Source of the DNA: Limisphaerales bacterium
GTDB taxonomy: Bacteria; Verrucomicrobiota; Verrucomicrobiia; Limisphaerales; AAA164-E04
Reading direction: 5' to 3'
NCBI GenBank assembly: GCA_024761205.1
Contig: JAMASS010000021.1
Span: 1 to 64,000, forward strand
Length of the DNA stretch: 64,000 bases
Shown here: positions 45,915 to 52,451 of the stretch, piece by piece
How the letters are laid out: every line of letters starts with the position of its first letter
Position numbering within the stretch: the stretch's first letter is position 1
Program-made: the position numbers and the translations under genes
The notes under the pieces: generated by a model
Database searches by the model: none
Told to the model about the DNA's origin: nothing
Seen by the model: only the letters and a program-made list of their open reading frames with translations

Positions 45915-46904
45915 TCATTCAAGCAGGCCAAACTGCTGCCACAGACCCTCAAGCTCGCTGTGCTCAAGCGTCCCGTCGTGCAGGACCAGACGATAGCGAA
46001 GCCGGGTTGGCCGTTCAGTCGATAAGGCCGCGGGATCACGACCCGGCCATTGGGGATTCTGCATGCTCCTCTTCGCCCTAAGTATCCACTTGAGCGGAAA
46101 CGCCGGATGGGTAGGATGCACCATCATGGTAAAACCTCTCCTGCGGCCTTCATACGTCCCGCTGACATCCATCCACGCACCGCCATCAACAGCCGTTCGA
46201 GCAGGTATGACGGGTCCCACTTGCCCCTCAAATCGGACATCGTCAGCCAACTGAATTCTCGGCGAGAAGCCGCCGTAGCCTTTGTCATCCTCGCTGCCTC
46301 CAATAGAAATCCCGTCAACGAGCGCCGTGAAGCGAAGGTCAATATCCAAAACACGATAACGATCCTCAGATCGCCAAGCCGTGATGATGGCCGATTCCCG
46401 AACTGGCCTAATGGAATCCGAGGGCTGAACCGGATCCGGCACCACCCAGTCACGGACGACCTTCAGCGTCGCGCTGTCACTCGTGATCTCCGTGGTCAGC
46501 CAAGAGCCAGGCTCATCTGGAGCCAACCATTGGGTGCCCTGGCAGAGCCAGGGGTCGGCCAGCGATCTTCCATTCTGCCGCAGTTGATGCCACGTCCAGA
46601 AAACACCCCGATGATGATAGTGATCCTCGGGAAAATCCTCCGTCACCACGTCCCCGGCAGGATTCCGCAAAGGATGCATATAGTTGGATCGTGCGAACTT
46701 CCCATCAAGAGACCGAGGCCCTAGTTGGAAGGTGAAAACTTCCTTGGCATCCTCAAATAAGACGACCCACTCATCCGCCTGCCTTCGCCAATCGAATACC
46801 TCAGATGCTTGAGACAGGCCGGCCACGTACGAAAAAAGCGCCCCACAAGACCATGCACCAAACCATCGAAAGTGTTTCGGAATCAGATGGACACGGTGGT
46901 TCAC
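45915..46904 (-). CDS. DUF6807 (PmoA-like) family secreted protein
   Basis: The protein has 329 aa from GTG 46904, which overlaps the TGA of the dehydrogenase gene by four bases (GTGA), with AGGAG close ahead. A signal-like hydrophobic stretch (about residues 16-34) is followed by a beta-rich fold. Family marks are SNYMHPLRNPAGDVVTEDFP, DHYHHRGVFWTWHQL with a cluster of histidines, and later FSPRIQLAD and MMVHPTHP. DUF6807, formerly called PmoA-like, is common in Planctomycetes and Verrucomicrobia beside sugar-degrading genes; its reaction is not established. Coupling to a PQQ dehydrogenase supports a role in oxidative sugar use. Confidence 0.82.
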   Translation of the reverse strand: MNHRVHLIPKHFRWFGAWSCGALFSYVAGLSQASEVFDWRRQADEWVVLFEDAKEVFTFQLGPRSLDGKFARSNYMHPLRNPAGDVVTEDFPEDHYHHRGVFWTWHQLRQNGRSLADPWLCQGTQWLAPDEPGSWLTTEITSDSATLKVVRDWVVPDPVQPSDSIRPVRESAIITAWRSEDRYRVLDIDLRFTALVDGISIGGSEDDKGYGGFSPRIQLADDVRFEGQVGPVIPARTAVDGGAWMDVSGTYEGRRRGFTMMVHPTHPAFPLKWILRAKRSMQNPQWPGRDPAALSTERPTRLRYRLVLHDGTLEHSELEGLWQQFGLLE

Positions 46905-49555
46905 TCCTCATGAATTACCACACGAAAGAAGGAAGCGCTATCTTTTGCGATTAATCTCTCAATCACCCCCCGAGTTCCGCGCCGACCAAAAAACGGCGAC
47001 GGCTCGTCCAGATCAACCACTTGCCAGTCAGGGATCGCACTTAGCGTACTGGCCTGTTGCAATTCTATACGCAGCGTTTCATCAGAAACTCTGGGAAAGC
47101 CAATCAACAAGTTCTCACCGGATTGCTGCACGCTGATCCGCCAGACATCTTTCGCATCGCGTGGATTCGTTCCCAAACGGAATTCGAGCCGATTGAGCAG
47201 TCGATCTTGATCGAAATCGCCATCCACAAGCGTCTCCGGTCCCTGGGAGGGTCCAAAGTAGCGCGCCACCCAGTCATCAAACGATTCCGGGGGCAACGCT
47301 TCAGTGATCCACTCATTCAATAAATCAATCGCATCTTGGTCGAGCACATTGGAGGCCACCGGCGGCATCCGACCTGAGCCCAGAGAACTAATCCGCCGCA
47401 AGATATCTGAAGCTCCAGGATCACCGGGAACCACGACCCGGCGTCCCTGATGGATCGAGGGATTGGCTAGGGCTCCGTTAATGATGCCGGATTGGCCAAA
47501 CAAAGCATTGAACCGCCCATCCCACAAGCCGATCGCAGTCCCTCCGGGTTGATGACATTGGCTGCAGTTTGCCGCCAGGTAGGAGCGCACGCGGTGAGAC
47601 AGACTCTGGCTCTTATCATTGACCGAAGCCGCCTGAGATAAGATCGACACATCACTTGGCGACTCCAAAAGGTAACCTGCCTGGCTAAGGGCCTGGATCT
47701 GATTCGCCTGACCGTTCCCGTATTGATAGGGTCGATTTAACTGCGAGGTTGAGAACCCCAAAGCGCCACCACCCGCTTTGGTGTGACAGGCAAGGCATTC
47801 GCTTCGACTGGGATACCGCCACACCTGTTCCTTCAATATCCCGTTGTCCTCCACCATAAAAGATTCATCCATTCCCTCCTCCGGAACCAGAAAAGCATTC
47901 TGCTGATCGTCATCCCAACGATATGTCATTCCATAAACACCCGACTCCTGTTGCACGATGAAACGCGTTTCCAAACGACGTCTCGAAGTCGGATCGCCCT
48001 TCCTGATCTCCAAATCAAAATGCTTTATCCACACCATTCCAGAGGGGAACGCCCAGTTGCCCTCCGGTGAGAACCCGATCCGGTCATCTGCATTGGGGAC
48101 GCTAAACCACCGGCTCTTGATCGCCCCGTCAGACCAAAACGGCGCATTAATTGAATAAGGCACCACTCCTGGATTCGGGCTCAAGATCCGAAGATCCGCA
48201 AACGCTCCGGTCGCAGCCAAACTTTTGGGCAACGGATCGCCCTCAACCACCTCGTCCTTGACCAACCGCCAAACACGATTGGAATTGAAATCCGCGAGCA
48301 GCACATCACCATTCCGCGGATCTGTGCCAAAAGCAGAGATAGCCGTTTCCCTAAGAATATTCTCCCACTCGGTGACCTCCGGCCCGTCATGGCGGAGCCA
48401 CCAGACGTTGGCACTGACGTAGTCGGCGAAGATGTAGGCACCAAAAAGCTGTGCTAACCGAGACCCCCGATAAACCACGCCACCTGTCACTGAGCGCCCC
48501 TGGTTGCTTCCGCTGCCATGCGAGTAATCCAAGAGCGGGTCCTCCAGCACTACCCCCGCCGGCACGGGAGCCCGATTCGGTCCATTGATTTTTCCCTCCC
48601 GATAGTTCCAACCATAGTTTCCCCCTTTGACAATCAAGTTAATCTCCTCGCGTTGATTCTGGCCGACATCACCGGCATAGAGCTCGCCCGTGGCCGGATC
48701 GAAAGCCATTCGCCAAGGGTTCCTCAAACCCACCGCCCAAAATTCGGCATGCACTGCATTCGGATCGACAGCCTCGCCATTGAACTCCGTAATCCCAACA
48801 AAGGGATTGTCTGCCGGCACCGAATAGTTGGCCCGCCCATCCTCATTAAACACCACGGCCGGATGCGGGTTCGGTTCGAGATTGCCGTTGCGCTTATCGA
48901 CATCGAGCCGAAGGATCCCGGCAAAGAAATCTTTATCCAACAATTGGCTATTACGCAGACTATCGTTCGCGTTGCCCTCATCGCCCAACGCCACGTAAAG
49001 ATACCCATCGGGTCCAAAGTGCAGATCACCCCCGTTATGATTCCCGGCGTCATCGCGTTGACTGAATAGAATGACCTCAGAATCCGGCAACCCCGCGTCT
49101 GGGTTAGTCGGATCCACTTGAAAACGAGAGAGCCGATTCGGTGACCCTGAACCCCTGGCTGTGTAGAAAACAAAGAAGGTGCCGTTCCTCTGGTAGTCAG
49201 GATGAAAGGCCAAGCCCAAAAGTCCTTGCTCACCGGAACGGGACTCCACCCGATCCGTGAGCGATAAAAACGTCTGCCGAGTCGGGTTCTCCAAATCCGG
49301 AATCACGCGAATGCGGCCGGCTCGTTCCACCACGAAGAGCCGATAGGTCTCCCCGGGAGCGCTTACAATGGCGACCGGTTGGGAAAACGAACGAATACCC
49401 TCAAAGGCAAGCTCCAATCGAAAACCAGATGTTGGCAGACTTAATGGGAACGACAACGTTGTGTTGGCTACCCGCTCAATCGGCTGGGCTTGCCCGCAAA
49501 CACCCGCACAAACCAGCAGTGCCCAAGCAAAATAACGTAAACATTTCAATCTCAA
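46901..49555 (-). CDS. PQQ-dependent sugar dehydrogenase fused to a diheme cytochrome domain
   Basis: The protein has 884 aa from TTG 49555, chosen because GGAGG lies five to six bases ahead and a signal peptide starts directly (LRYFAWALLVCAGVCGQA); the open frame reaches 49630. Residues about 50-420 form a glucose/sorbosone-dehydrogenase propeller: SGEQGLLGLAFHPDY, NHNGGDLHFGPDGYLYVALGD, RNPWRMAFDP and GGNYGWNYREG. Residues about 425-800 match the TIGR03806 (HNE_0200) cytochrome domain with two CXXCH sites, CLACH near 588 and CSQCH near 664, and a methionine in GRMPPVASN. It probably oxidises sugars in the periplasm and passes electrons straight to its haems. DUF6807 follows, translationally coupled. 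Confidence 0.88.
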   Translation of the reverse strand: MRLKCLRYFAWALLVCAGVCGQAQPIERVANTTLSFPLSLPTSGFRLELAFEGIRSFSQPVAIVSAPGETYRLFVVERAGRIRVIPDLENPTRQTFLSLTDRVESRSGEQGLLGLAFHPDYQRNGTFFVFYTARGSGSPNRLSRFQVDPTNPDAGLPDSEVILFSQRDDAGNHNGGDLHFGPDGYLYVALGDEGNANDSLRNSQLLDKDFFAGILRLDVDKRNGNLEPNPHPAVVFNEDGRANYSVPADNPFVGITEFNGEAVDPNAVHAEFWAVGLRNPWRMAFDPATGELYAGDVGQNQREEINLIVKGGNYGWNYREGKINGPNRAPVPAGVVLEDPLLDYSHGSGSNQGRSVTGGVVYRGSRLAQLFGAYIFADYVSANVWWLRHDGPEVTEWENILRETAISAFGTDPRNGDVLLADFNSNRVWRLVKDEVVEGDPLPKSLAATGAFADLRILSPNPGVVPYSINAPFWSDGAIKSRWFSVPNADDRIGFSPEGNWAFPSGMVWIKHFDLEIRKGDPTSRRRLETRFIVQQESGVYGMTYRWDDDQQNAFLVPEEGMDESFMVEDNGILKEQVWRYPSRSECLACHTKAGGGALGFSTSQLNRPYQYGNGQANQIQALSQAGYLLESPSDVSILSQAASVNDKSQSLSHRVRSYLAANCSQCHQPGGTAIGLWDGRFNALFGQSGIINGALANPSIHQGRRVVVPGDPGASDILRRISSLGSGRMPPVASNVLDQDAIDLLNEWITEALPPESFDDWVARYFGPSQGPETLVDGDFDQDRLLNRLEFRLGTNPRDAKDVWRISVQQSGENLLIGFPRVSDETLRIELQQASTLSAIPDWQVVDLDEPSPFFGRRGTRGVIERLIAKDSASFFRVVIHEE

Positions 49556-49651
49556 TTCCGCCTCCAATTCTGATTCATCACTGAAACCTCGTCTCCCTAT
49601 ACTGCCGCATCCTTGCGGAGACAGCACCAATCAATTCACCCCACAAACAAG

Positions 49652-50424
49652 CTAGATCGATGCCAAAACCTGCTTGATTAACGAGCCAATTTCGCCAAAT
49701 CCGCATAACTTAGCAATCCAATCCTCCGGAATGCCGCACACAACCGCTTCACATGCGCCAAAACCACGCGCGCACAAATCTTCCAGCATCGCCTCCCATT
49801 GCGTCTTGTACGCCGAATACTTCCGCTGCTGAACCATCCATCAGTCAAGGCGTATCCAAAGCCACCGCCAAATGCCTCTCGGCTCGCGCCGCTTCAAAAT
49901 GTCCTGCAACGTGTTCGTGAACCCAAACAACGCCGATATATTGAAGCCCCCCCCGAAGTCAGAATCGGGCGGTTGGCAAAAGCAAATGCGCCCGATACAT
50001 CAACGGCATCAAAGGCCCGCAACTCATCGTCCCCTTTATCCTCACCGGCAAGATCGCCCCCTTTCCCCGCAAGAAGAAGCGTTAGAGAAAACAGCGCGAC
50101 CAAATCCGCCAGGAAGAAGAGGCCAAAGAACAGGCCACAAAAAAATCGTAAAAAAGGCTTGCCGTGATTCCGTCATCCAATAGTCTTCGCCCGGCCATTT
50201 ATTCCATAGAGCCCCGACCATCGGGTTACTCGCTGAATACAAAAGTTTCGTCACAGCGTCGGGAGAGTCCCTCTCTCGGCGGTGGCGGAACGAATAAGCG
50301 GGAACTCTTCATTGCTCTTTTGAAGGATGTTTTGCAAACGGCCCGGTGCGGGTTACGTTTGTAGTCGCCTTGCCGGGAACGCAACCGTCGGAAAAATAAA
50401 GCACAGCAAAAATCAGCAATCGCT
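49652..50424. other. Gene-poor stretch before the AT-rich cassette
   Basis: About 770 bp without a recognised gene. A 61-aa frame on the minus strand (49652-49837) and a 75-aa frame (50226-50453) have no family features. Composition changes from local GC-rich to lower GC in the second half. The block may be a flank of the orphan cassette at 50425-52248. Confidence 0.4.
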
Positions 50425-50554
50425 ATGAACACAAATAGCATCACAAGAAACAAAGCCCGGTTTGCGGGTTTTCTGGCAAGCCTGCCAGCCTTTGGAAAAG
50501 CTATAACCCTCGGAACCCGTTGCCTTCATTGCTCAGGCGTTTTTCACTGAAACG

Positions 50555-50998
50555 ATGAACGCAGCGGAATTGTACCCGATTGGAGGCGGTGAATGTGAGG
50601 TCGAGCTGGATGTCCCCGCAGGCTACCCAAACGACGGAACACGGCCCTCGAACGTACCTTCAGGTCTTTATTGGGACTCCGATGGCATCTGCGTTTATGT
50701 CTGGGGGCCGTGCGATAAACTCGAGGAGCTCTACGGAGATACCGTAGACGGACACAATCCCGCCCCTCCCGAAGATGGCAATGGCAATGACGGCTCGCCC
50801 GGAACGCCGGAAAACCCTGACGGGGATGATCCTGACGACACGCTGGACGATCCCGGACCTGAGGAACCTGAGAAAATCCATGTGGCGAGCCTTATTGCGA
50901 CTATGTCGCAGGGTCGTATTACGCCAATGGAAGTTGGGAGACCTTTGTGTGGAATGAGCCGCGAGAATATAAGCGGGGCACCGGAAATGGAAACATAG
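50555..50998 (+). CDS. Orphan secreted-looking acidic protein, N-terminal part of a frameshifted gene
   Basis: I do not recognise the family. The product begins MNAAELYPIGGGECEVELDV, then has paired cysteines (about residues 14, 46 and 53) and a long acidic, Pro-, Gly- and Asp-rich linker at about residues 68-108, typical of surface proteins. The frame continues to 50998, but from about 50875 the likely true reading switches to the next frame: PCGEPYCDYVAGSYY and FVWNEPREY, open to 51351. One missing A in the AAAA run at about 50873 would unite both. Hence it may be one protein of 265 aa or more. A different frame from ATG 50425 carries a leader-like start. Function unknown. Confidence 0.5.
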   Translation: MNAAELYPIGGGECEVELDVPAGYPNDGTRPSNVPSGLYWDSDGICVYVWGPCDKLEELYGDTVDGHNPAPPEDGNGNDGSPGTPENPDGDDPDDTLDDPGPEEPEKIHVASLIATMSQGRITPMEVGRPLCGMSRENISGAPEMET

Positions 50999-51351
50999 GC
51001 ATAAGTTATAGAATAGAGTGTATAGATGGAGGACCAAAGAGGAGTTTGGAAAGTTGTATAGCAAAGGCGGATGCTTGGATTGTGGCGGAAGGAGTGGCAT
51101 ACAATGCTGCTTTTTCCTATTGTATGATACAGGCATCAATCACTTGGGAGGCCATGTCGGCAGCTTGTGCAGTTGAAGTTTTTGGTGGGGTTTTTGTGGT
51201 GTGGGATTGCCTGGTTAGGGAATGGAATAGATTTCAGCAGGCACAACAAACTTGTCAAGACGACTTGGCGAATCGGCTGGCCAGTGCTTTTGTTCGGGCC
51301 GACCTCCGCATTGATGAATGTATCGCTACTTATGGAGGGTGTCCGCAATGA
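50947..51351 (+). CDS. Orphan cysteine-rich protein, C-terminal part of the frameshifted gene
   Basis: I do not recognise the family. It is 134 aa from an internal ATG, but in-frame sequence extends back to about 50875, joining the acidic linker upstream. It has eight cysteines spread through a helical region (IECIDGG, SLESCIAKADAW, FSYCMIQ, SAACAVEVF, WDCLVREW, QTCQDD, DECIATYGGC), several placed to make disulphides, and a hydrophobic stretch in the middle (CAVEVFGGVFVVWDCLV) that might be a membrane helix. The stop TGA overlaps the ATG of the next gene by four bases (51348-51351), a sign of coupling. The sequence is lower in GC than the flanks. Confidence 0.5.
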   Translation: MWNEPREYKRGTGNGNIGISYRIECIDGGPKRSLESCIAKADAWIVAEGVAYNAAFSYCMIQASITWEAMSAACAVEVFGGVFVVWDCLVREWNRFQQAQQTCQDDLANRLASAFVRADLRIDECIATYGGCPQ

Positions 51352-52085
51352 GAAAGATAGACGTTGCATGGTGGATAATGCTGTTTGGATTAGTAGCTCT
51401 CCTTTTTTCGTTCATAAATAGCAATTTGGTACCGAACGAATGCCGAAACGTTCAAGAGAGTGTGGAAGTTATTCAAAGCCAACTGGAGAGAGAAAATCTG
51501 AGAAATCTTCGCGCTCAAGAAGACCTGAAAGCGGTCGAAGAATCGCTTGGCAGTTTAAGGCAATTGATGTGGGGCGCAACAGGGAAAAACCGGCGGGCGA
51601 TTGAAAACATTCAAAATGTCCTTTCAATCCAGGAACGGGCTGATGATGACGGCGAGGCGCCTACGGCAAAGGCAGATGACGGTAACCCTCCCGACTTTAT
51701 TCCTTGTTGCGGCGGCGATGAGGAGATTGAGGATGTTAGTAATGCTTCCCTTGATTCTCCAGATATGCAAGCAAAGGTAGCGGAAGTAGCAGCAAGGCTA
51801 AAAGAGCAGGCTAAGATATTCCGCGCTTCACTGGATGATGAAGGGCGCGGCGAACTGGCGAGAAGGACGGATGAATTGATGGATCAGTTGTATTATGAGC
51901 CAATTCAAAGGATTCCAATAGAATTCAGAGGAAGGATGATGCAGGTCACAGAGGCTCAAAAAGAAGACATGCGTAAGGGATTAGAGGAGTCTGTAGCTTT
52001 CCTAATGATGACCGAAGACATGCAGCGGCAAATCTTCAAACGGCTGGACGCTAGGGAGAAAAACAAACCCCAATCGCATGAGTGA
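51348..52085 (+). CDS. Orphan membrane-anchored coiled-coil protein
   Basis: The protein has 245 aa from ATG 51348, overlapping the previous stop (ATGA). One N-terminal membrane helix (WWIMLFGLVALLFSFI, about residues 8-23) is followed by a coiled-coil (about 35-85, VIQSQLERENLRNLRAQEDL). Then comes an acidic linker with a vicinal CC pair (PCCGG, about 118), and a charged helical C-terminal half ending MMTEDMQRQIFKRLDA. No catalytic motif is visible and I do not know the family. It forms a block with the cysteine-rich gene upstream and a small membrane gene downstream, overlapping both. The organisation resembles a cotranslated accessory module. Confidence 0.65.
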   Translation: MRKIDVAWWIMLFGLVALLFSFINSNLVPNECRNVQESVEVIQSQLERENLRNLRAQEDLKAVEESLGSLRQLMWGATGKNRRAIENIQNVLSIQERADDDGEAPTAKADDGNPPDFIPCCGGDEEIEDVSNASLDSPDMQAKVAEVAARLKEQAKIFRASLDDEGRGELARRTDELMDQLYYEPIQRIPIEFRGRMMQVTEAQKEDMRKGLEESVAFLMMTEDMQRQIFKRLDAREKNKPQSHE

Positions 52086-52248
52086 ACCAGAGGCAGAAGA
52101 TCAAGCCTTGTCGCCTGCGGGCAGATGGGCTTGTGGCGCGTGTAAAACGATGCTTGTTTTACTTATTTTCGTGACAATACCCACTAGCTTGGTAGGAAAG
52201 AAGTTCTTTGCTTGGTTGCGGCTTGTTCTTTTTGAAGGGGTTGCTTGA
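52078..52248 (+). CDS. Small orphan membrane protein, 56 aa
   Basis: ATG 52078 lies within the end of the coiled-coil gene (ATGAGTGA overlap of eight bases), a common coupling arrangement. It encodes MSEPEAEDQALSPAGRWA, then a CGAC pair, then a hydrophobic stretch (TMLVLLIFVTIPTSLVG, about residues 24-40) and a basic, aromatic end. The only support is the overlap, the well-formed membrane segment and continuity of the cassette, so it may be a chance frame. Confidence 0.4.
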   Translation: MSEPEAEDQALSPAGRWACGACKTMLVLLIFVTIPTSLVGKKFFAWLRLVLFEGVA

Positions 52249-52451
52249 CAATTGACTGACGTTTGAGCCGCAGGGGCAAGGGTTGGAATACGCTTCGTAC
52301 TTCACGGCTTGCTCCGGTTTTTTTTGGGCTTTTTCGCGGCCGGGTTGCCACTTTGGGGGTGCCGGAGGTGAAAAAACCGGCGTGAACCGTTGCCATGCGG
52401 CAGGCTTGCGATTAAGTTGCTTCATAGCGGGATACGATTTCACGGGCGGCC

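Follow-up and report, generated by a model that had tools for sequence, protein, structure and literature searches.

Layout of the locus

The DNA analysed here (the window) is a stretch of 64,000 nucleotides from a genome of 4.94 Mb in 92 contigs (hereafter G000). Its gene content suggests a verrucomicrobial host. The locus of interest is flanked by a long gene on the minus strand (46901-49630) and by coaD (52452), and related cassettes occur on other contigs of G000 (C24, C45 and so on; W denotes the window copy). Its features are as follows.

49990-50154, plus strand: relic of the C-terminal end of an upstream gene X (56% identity to X residues 205-259, with one TAG and one TAA inside)
50043-50852, plus strand: 5' block common to the C24 and C45 cassettes (95% and 93% DNA identity)
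50221-50352, plus strand: structured non-coding hairpin element with stems P1, P2 and P3, upstream of the leader
50425-50550, plus strand: signal-peptide-like leader of gene A (MNTNSITRNKARFAGFLASL...); the leader motif occurs at 8 loci
50555-50866, plus strand: constant head of gene A (ECEVELDVPAGYPNDGTRPSNVPSGLYWDSDG...) with an acidic Pro/Gly/Asp linker (head ORF 50555-50998)
50872-51351, plus strand: variable tail of gene A, 159 aa with 10 Cys; related tails at C45, C24, C3, C47 and C17
51348-52085, plus strand: gene B, with an N-terminal membrane anchor, a coiled coil carrying an LR-LMWGATGKNRRAIE motif, a low-complexity stretch and a C-terminal helical domain (six paralogues in G000; structure model)
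51759-52061, plus strand: C-terminal three-helix domain of gene B (pLDDT 81-93 over residues ~151-220)
52078-52248, plus strand: possible third gene of 56 aa with one hydrophobic segment, overlapping B by 8 bases; uncertain

The 5' block holds the gene X relic, the hairpin element, the export leader and the constant head with its acidic linker. An earlier note on this DNA, made from the letters alone, had described a disulphide-rich protein with an acidic linker; the Cys-rich tail and the linker are there, but gene A consists of three open pieces in differing frames (leader 50425-50550, head 50555-50998, tail 50872-51351). Two frame breaks separate them, one at CCC 50516-50518 between leader and head, which leaves the leader out of frame, and one at AAAA 50873-50876 between linker and tail. 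The tail frame is one base off the head frame, and the probability of its being open by chance was 0.0003 (20,000 simulations). With A broken at both leader and linker, the window copy would probably make an intact B and no complete A. Programmed frameshifting at the linker was considered and rejected on inspection, because AAAA permits +1 slippage yet the frame of the tail is -1, and other copies are broken elsewhere or by nonsense codons.

Over an aligned 198-bp part of the head, the window differs from C3 by 8 synonymous and 2 non-synonymous codon differences and from C45 by 5 and 2, respectively; judged from these codons, purifying selection is acting on the head. The tail was modelled with AlphaFold2 from a six-sequence alignment as a small beta part followed by a two-helix hairpin, with Cys near the ends of the hairpin and along its helices (pLDDT 68 overall, about 76-89 across most of the helices).

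The membrane-anchored coiled-coil protein of the earlier note was confirmed, as B has one N-terminal hydrophobic segment followed by a coiled coil, and its frame was open by chance in 0 of 20,000 simulations. The AlphaFold2 model, again from a six-sequence alignment, shows a membrane helix, a long coiled coil, a disordered part and, predicted with confidence, a C-terminal domain of three helices. The overlaps reported before are also present, 4 bases between tail and B (ATGA, 51348-51351) and 8 bases between B and the 56-residue ORF (52078-52085). The latter had been taken for a small membrane protein; an ORF with a hydrophobic segment does exist there, but it is weak, being open in 6% of simulations, and the sole match to its region is 48 bp at 81% nucleotide identity (window 52229-52275) downstream of the C3 cassette. 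At that place, downstream of the C3 gene B, we noted a possible small membrane gene (L008:7800-8010, minus strand) in which a seven-G run shifts the frame and of which 48 bp resemble the window ORF region. The lower GC content that had been ascribed to the whole cassette holds for 50871-52248, which comprises the tail, gene B and the small ORF and whose 47.5% is below the window mean of 55.3% and the lowest among the 1.4-kb stretches sampled in the window, but not for the head piece (50425-50870, 56%).

As had been proposed, no known family was recognised in the cassette: the window pieces gave no match in Pfam, NCBIfam or PADLOC, and PHROGs returned one weak coiled-coil match, of B to a family annotated as holin (E 0.0019 over 45 residues of coiled coil). 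That match aside, no toxin, immunity, adhesin or secretion domain was found in these four libraries, and PADLOC-DB gave no anti-phage defence match for the window pieces. Comparison with PDB folds gave best Z scores of 5.8 for B and 8.3 for the A tail, all to generic helical arrangements; the tail, considered as a toxin, had no match in Pfam, NCBIfam or PADLOC, and its fold matches were generic helical hairpins. A prophage or RHS remnant, the outcome that would have spoken against the earlier proposal of an undescribed system, would find its one point of contact in the holin-annotated match, but no other RHS or phage model matched in Pfam or PHROGs, PADLOC lent no support, none of 2.9 million viral contigs held a relative, and the cassettes sit singly between housekeeping genes. 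We regard such an origin, already disfavoured, as very improbable.

A mosaic family of cassettes in one genome

The cassette had been called an orphan, which it is not, since the same genome contains six B paralogues and repeats the 5' block in about 20 partial DNA copies. The paralogues lie on six other contigs and match gene B at 26-33% identity, and the third codon position diverges most in all 15 pairs compared (15/15). This codon pattern shows protein-level constraint on B, and the frames of the paralogues are open. A related, strongly diverged gene-A tail precedes 5/6 of the paralogues, and the tail and B families occur together at all six tail loci, window included. No B paralogue was found in 57 relatives, three of the same genus among them, and no B relative was found in contigs of 84,980 species or in viral contigs. 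Searches for relatives elsewhere likewise gave none in genome contigs (B, X), viral contigs (B, head/tail, X, element) or plasmids. In a distant member of the class (G309), a 199-aa membrane protein contains a weak relative of the B C-terminal part (E 1.1e-5). One weak partial match apart, the family has so far been seen, as far as sequence comparison reaches, only in the species of G000.

The copies are mosaics. The identity of W to C24 and C45 is mostly 80-100% per 100 bp and falls abruptly inside the acidic linker to about 40%, the level of unrelated sequence. C24 and C45 have slightly more tail in common, diverge, share an island of 88-91% within the B coil, and differ once more beyond it. 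Thus heads are near-identical among copies, while tails and most partners have diverged. Signal-like leaders were found at 8 loci in G000 by motif search; C17 and C47 have leader and tail but no head, and C3 carries the head behind a different leader, showing that the modules reassort.

The hairpin element reaches further than gene A. Among the G000 loci fetched or searched we counted 12 copies, heading the cassettes at W, C24, C45, C17, C3, C26, C27, C2, C34, C67, C78 and C11, and most of these cassettes (C26, C27, C2, C34, C67, C78, C11) carry, usually behind a related leader, unrelated gene pairs with one exported and one membrane-anchored product. In the intact members of these other types, one gene specifies a protein with a signal (leader RNKARFAGF or similar) and the other a helical protein anchored at its N-terminus. 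The element folds into a long stem, P1-P2-P3, with a core folding z of -4.9 in the window and -6.6 at C27; the fold is weaker when C78 (z -1.3), C67 (z -1.9) and C11 (z 0.0) are each taken alone. In an alignment of nine copies, 94% of cells are paired and 5 pairs have changed on both sides, and at C3 another stem sequence forms an equally strong hairpin at the same place. The element is non-coding, because its copies differ by indels of 1-2 bases; for the same reason an ORF inside it (50164-50364) was rejected as a gene. Scans against the covariance models of Rfam 15 gave no match at E<=1 for the window or at E<=0.5 for five other copies. An RNA-model scan of 383 other genomes of the class, with filters, did not find the element, but since eight candidates per genome were scored under strict filters it is no census. 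Several cassettes are closed, after their partner genes, by a similar terminator-like hairpin; searching for it at 3 mismatches gave only five copies, and the search was rejected as a census tool.

Gene X is intact in one copy (262 aa, contig C34). In a genome of another family (G296) we saw six gene X relatives (L086-L091), several at contig ends, and the class scans gave no relative of leader, head or gene B there. The family might be a selfish or drifting repeat in which the 5' element and head spread and capture nearby genes, the products having no selected role and the copies decaying. About 20 partial DNA copies, many of them fragmentary, gene X relics with stops, breaks of gene A at several loci, and the multi-copy X relatives at contig ends in the distant G296 would all suit such a repeat, but the B paralogues keep protein-level constraint and open frames, the heads show more synonymous than non-synonymous change, and no transposase was recognised among the ORFs inside the cassettes read. 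We consider this explanation rather unlikely. Transposase-like fragments (IS1595-like by eye) were seen only in the flanks of C3, C17 and C47 (L008:12599-13255, L012:14531-15184 and L011:6893-7135); those of C3 and C17 are 91% identical across 654 bp.

Gene order and the decay of gene A

In relatives, purK-purE lies next to or near coaD-yceD-plsX. In G000, the C24 cassette immediately follows purE and the window cassette immediately precedes coaD, and the ancestral order is thereby split between contigs C14 and C24. At this break of gene order, 247 bases of the window (50470-50716) are identical to L010:6674-6920 on C24. Either the chromosome recombined inside the common head or the assembler misjoined two contigs; an assembly chimera is possible. 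It could be, more broadly, that part of what we describe is an assembly artefact, in that the window copy unites head and tail from two different cassettes and some of the frame breaks are sequencing errors. The 247 identical bases and the splitting of purK-purE-coaD exactly at these two cassettes point in this direction. On the other hand, the W and C24 copies are only about 95% identical across 800 bp, nonsense substitutions break gene A in independent contigs (C17, C45), and the housekeeping genes adjoining the cassette are open, leaving an artefact of this kind improbable.

In six cassettes A is broken and B open: W and C24 have two frame breaks each, C45 and C17 a nonsense codon, C3 a frame break and C78 several breaks. 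Both genes are open at C47, C27, C2, C26, C67 and C45:15.8k, and both are gone at C6; no cassette read had A open and B broken. By our own calculation the two-sided sign test for 6 versus 0 gives p 0.03, a count that is small, includes one lesion common to two perhaps non-independent copies and stands beside several other cassette types with both genes intact. The shared lesion is the CCC break of W and C24, which is not independent evidence because it lies within the 247-base identical stretch. Decay of A before B would be expected if B protects against A, although a lesser need for A could by itself account for it.

The decay order bears on another possibility, that the cassettes form a non-toxic surface repertoire in which the anchored B displays A, a variable protein exported for recognition or adhesion, and head exchange diversifies the surface. 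A display complex would be well served by a disulphide-capped helical hairpin with an acidic spacer and by a coiled-coil partner anchored in the membrane, no enzyme signature was seen, and differing cassette types exist in parallel within one genome. It would be odd, though, for six copies to have lost A yet kept B if B merely displays A, and a plain reading picked out no motif for anchoring in the cell wall or outer membrane. We hold such a repertoire to be a possibility, if not a likely one.

Possible function and closest known systems

Our preferred reading, a tentative one that falls short of an even chance, is by analogy that the locus is a decaying member of a modular repertoire with constant heads and variable tails, similar to MafB/MafI, with an anchored immunity-like partner. 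Protein A would leave the cytoplasm via Sec, and its variable tail, a Cys-capped helical hairpin, would provide the activity or the recognition; B, anchored in the membrane, would bind the A of its own cassette in the periplasm. In this scheme A may be a toxin used in competition or contact, with B as the matching immunity protein. The 5' element would provide joint control of the cassettes and, together with the head, would serve as homology for cassette exchange. The points in favour are the B paralogues in one genome, the constant pairing of tail and B, with the A stop overlapping the B start in the window, the sharp switch in the linker from 90-100% to about 40% identity, the element with compensatory changes at 12 cassettes, the terminator-like hairpins and the 6:0 decay order. 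Against it stand the lack of a recognised domain, the generic folds and A tails with no obvious catalytic motif. A toxin exported by Sec would also require a further way of leaving the cell. The module of toxin, immunity or contact type suggested before suits the anatomy (constant exported head, variable Cys-rich tail, anchored partner, many paralogous cassettes, A breaking first) but has no match to a known toxin or immunity family, and a toxin-immunity function would be ascribed to it by analogy. What is observed is the anatomy, the confinement to one genome, the mosaicism and the conserved element; export, toxicity, immunity and a contact between A and B are inferences.

Sec-exported polymorphic toxins, MafB included, combine a constant exported head with a polymorphic tail (PMC3482391), and MafB/MafI of Neisseria are Sec-exported with a lineage-specific conserved N-terminal domain (PMC3482391, PMC4287609). 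Like them, the cassette has a signal-peptide-like leader followed by a conserved, lineage-restricted head and a polymorphic C-terminus, is present in several copies per genome and has a partner gene at the 3' end, and the heads of C24, C45 and W are 93-95% identical while their tails share about 40% DNA identity. B follows the tail at 6/6 loci and outlasts A in decay, a position that may correspond to that of the immunity gene in MafB-like systems. Unlike MafB/MafI, the window pieces have no Pfam match to the MafB-N domain (DUF1020) and no recognised toxin fold, no adjoining MafA-like gene was seen, the partner is a single-pass membrane-anchored coiled-coil protein, and in G000 the structured 5' element is common even to gene pairs that are unrelated. 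The Amoebophilus APD1/APD2 and Microscilla-N effector groups (PMC3482391) similarly show a constant N-terminal domain confined to one organism, diverse C-termini and many parallel loci; their C-terminal domains are in many cases recognised enzymes (PMC3482391), whereas the cassette has none recognised and is followed by an anchored partner gene.

The cassettes also resemble paralogous families of another kind in their homogenised heads, diversifying tails and recombination at the head. Such lineage-specific families exist with concerted 5' ends and variable 3' ends. The cassette differs from them in that its common part includes a non-coding hairpin element, which also heads cassettes for unrelated proteins. 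A bolder proposal, which we think unlikely, is a species-specific contact or competition repertoire with a structured 5' RNA element in front of at least 12 cassettes for variable exported proteins and their anchored partners, exchange by recombination in the constant head, self-contained diversification and exported helical-hairpin proteins outside the known toxin and surface families. If the pairs are exported effectors and anchored partners, this bacterial lineage, itself little studied, would have a large repertoire still to be characterised, made up of protein families that escape almost all current libraries. The hairpin element offers a handle for finding and testing every member in one genome, and the mosaics show the way in which constant heads and variable tails exchange.

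Further genes were noted beside some cassettes. On C34 (L038:1-4964, minus strand), a 598-aa exported protein lies beside the intact gene X and is followed by tandem, related small genes ('YAFYDPPSRRMKAA...'); small genes like these are also present on C24, and the arrangement looks like an array of partner genes. On C24 (L010:13142-13965) and C11 (L041:423-1233), we found adjoining, repeated and related membrane proteins of ~103-111 aa.
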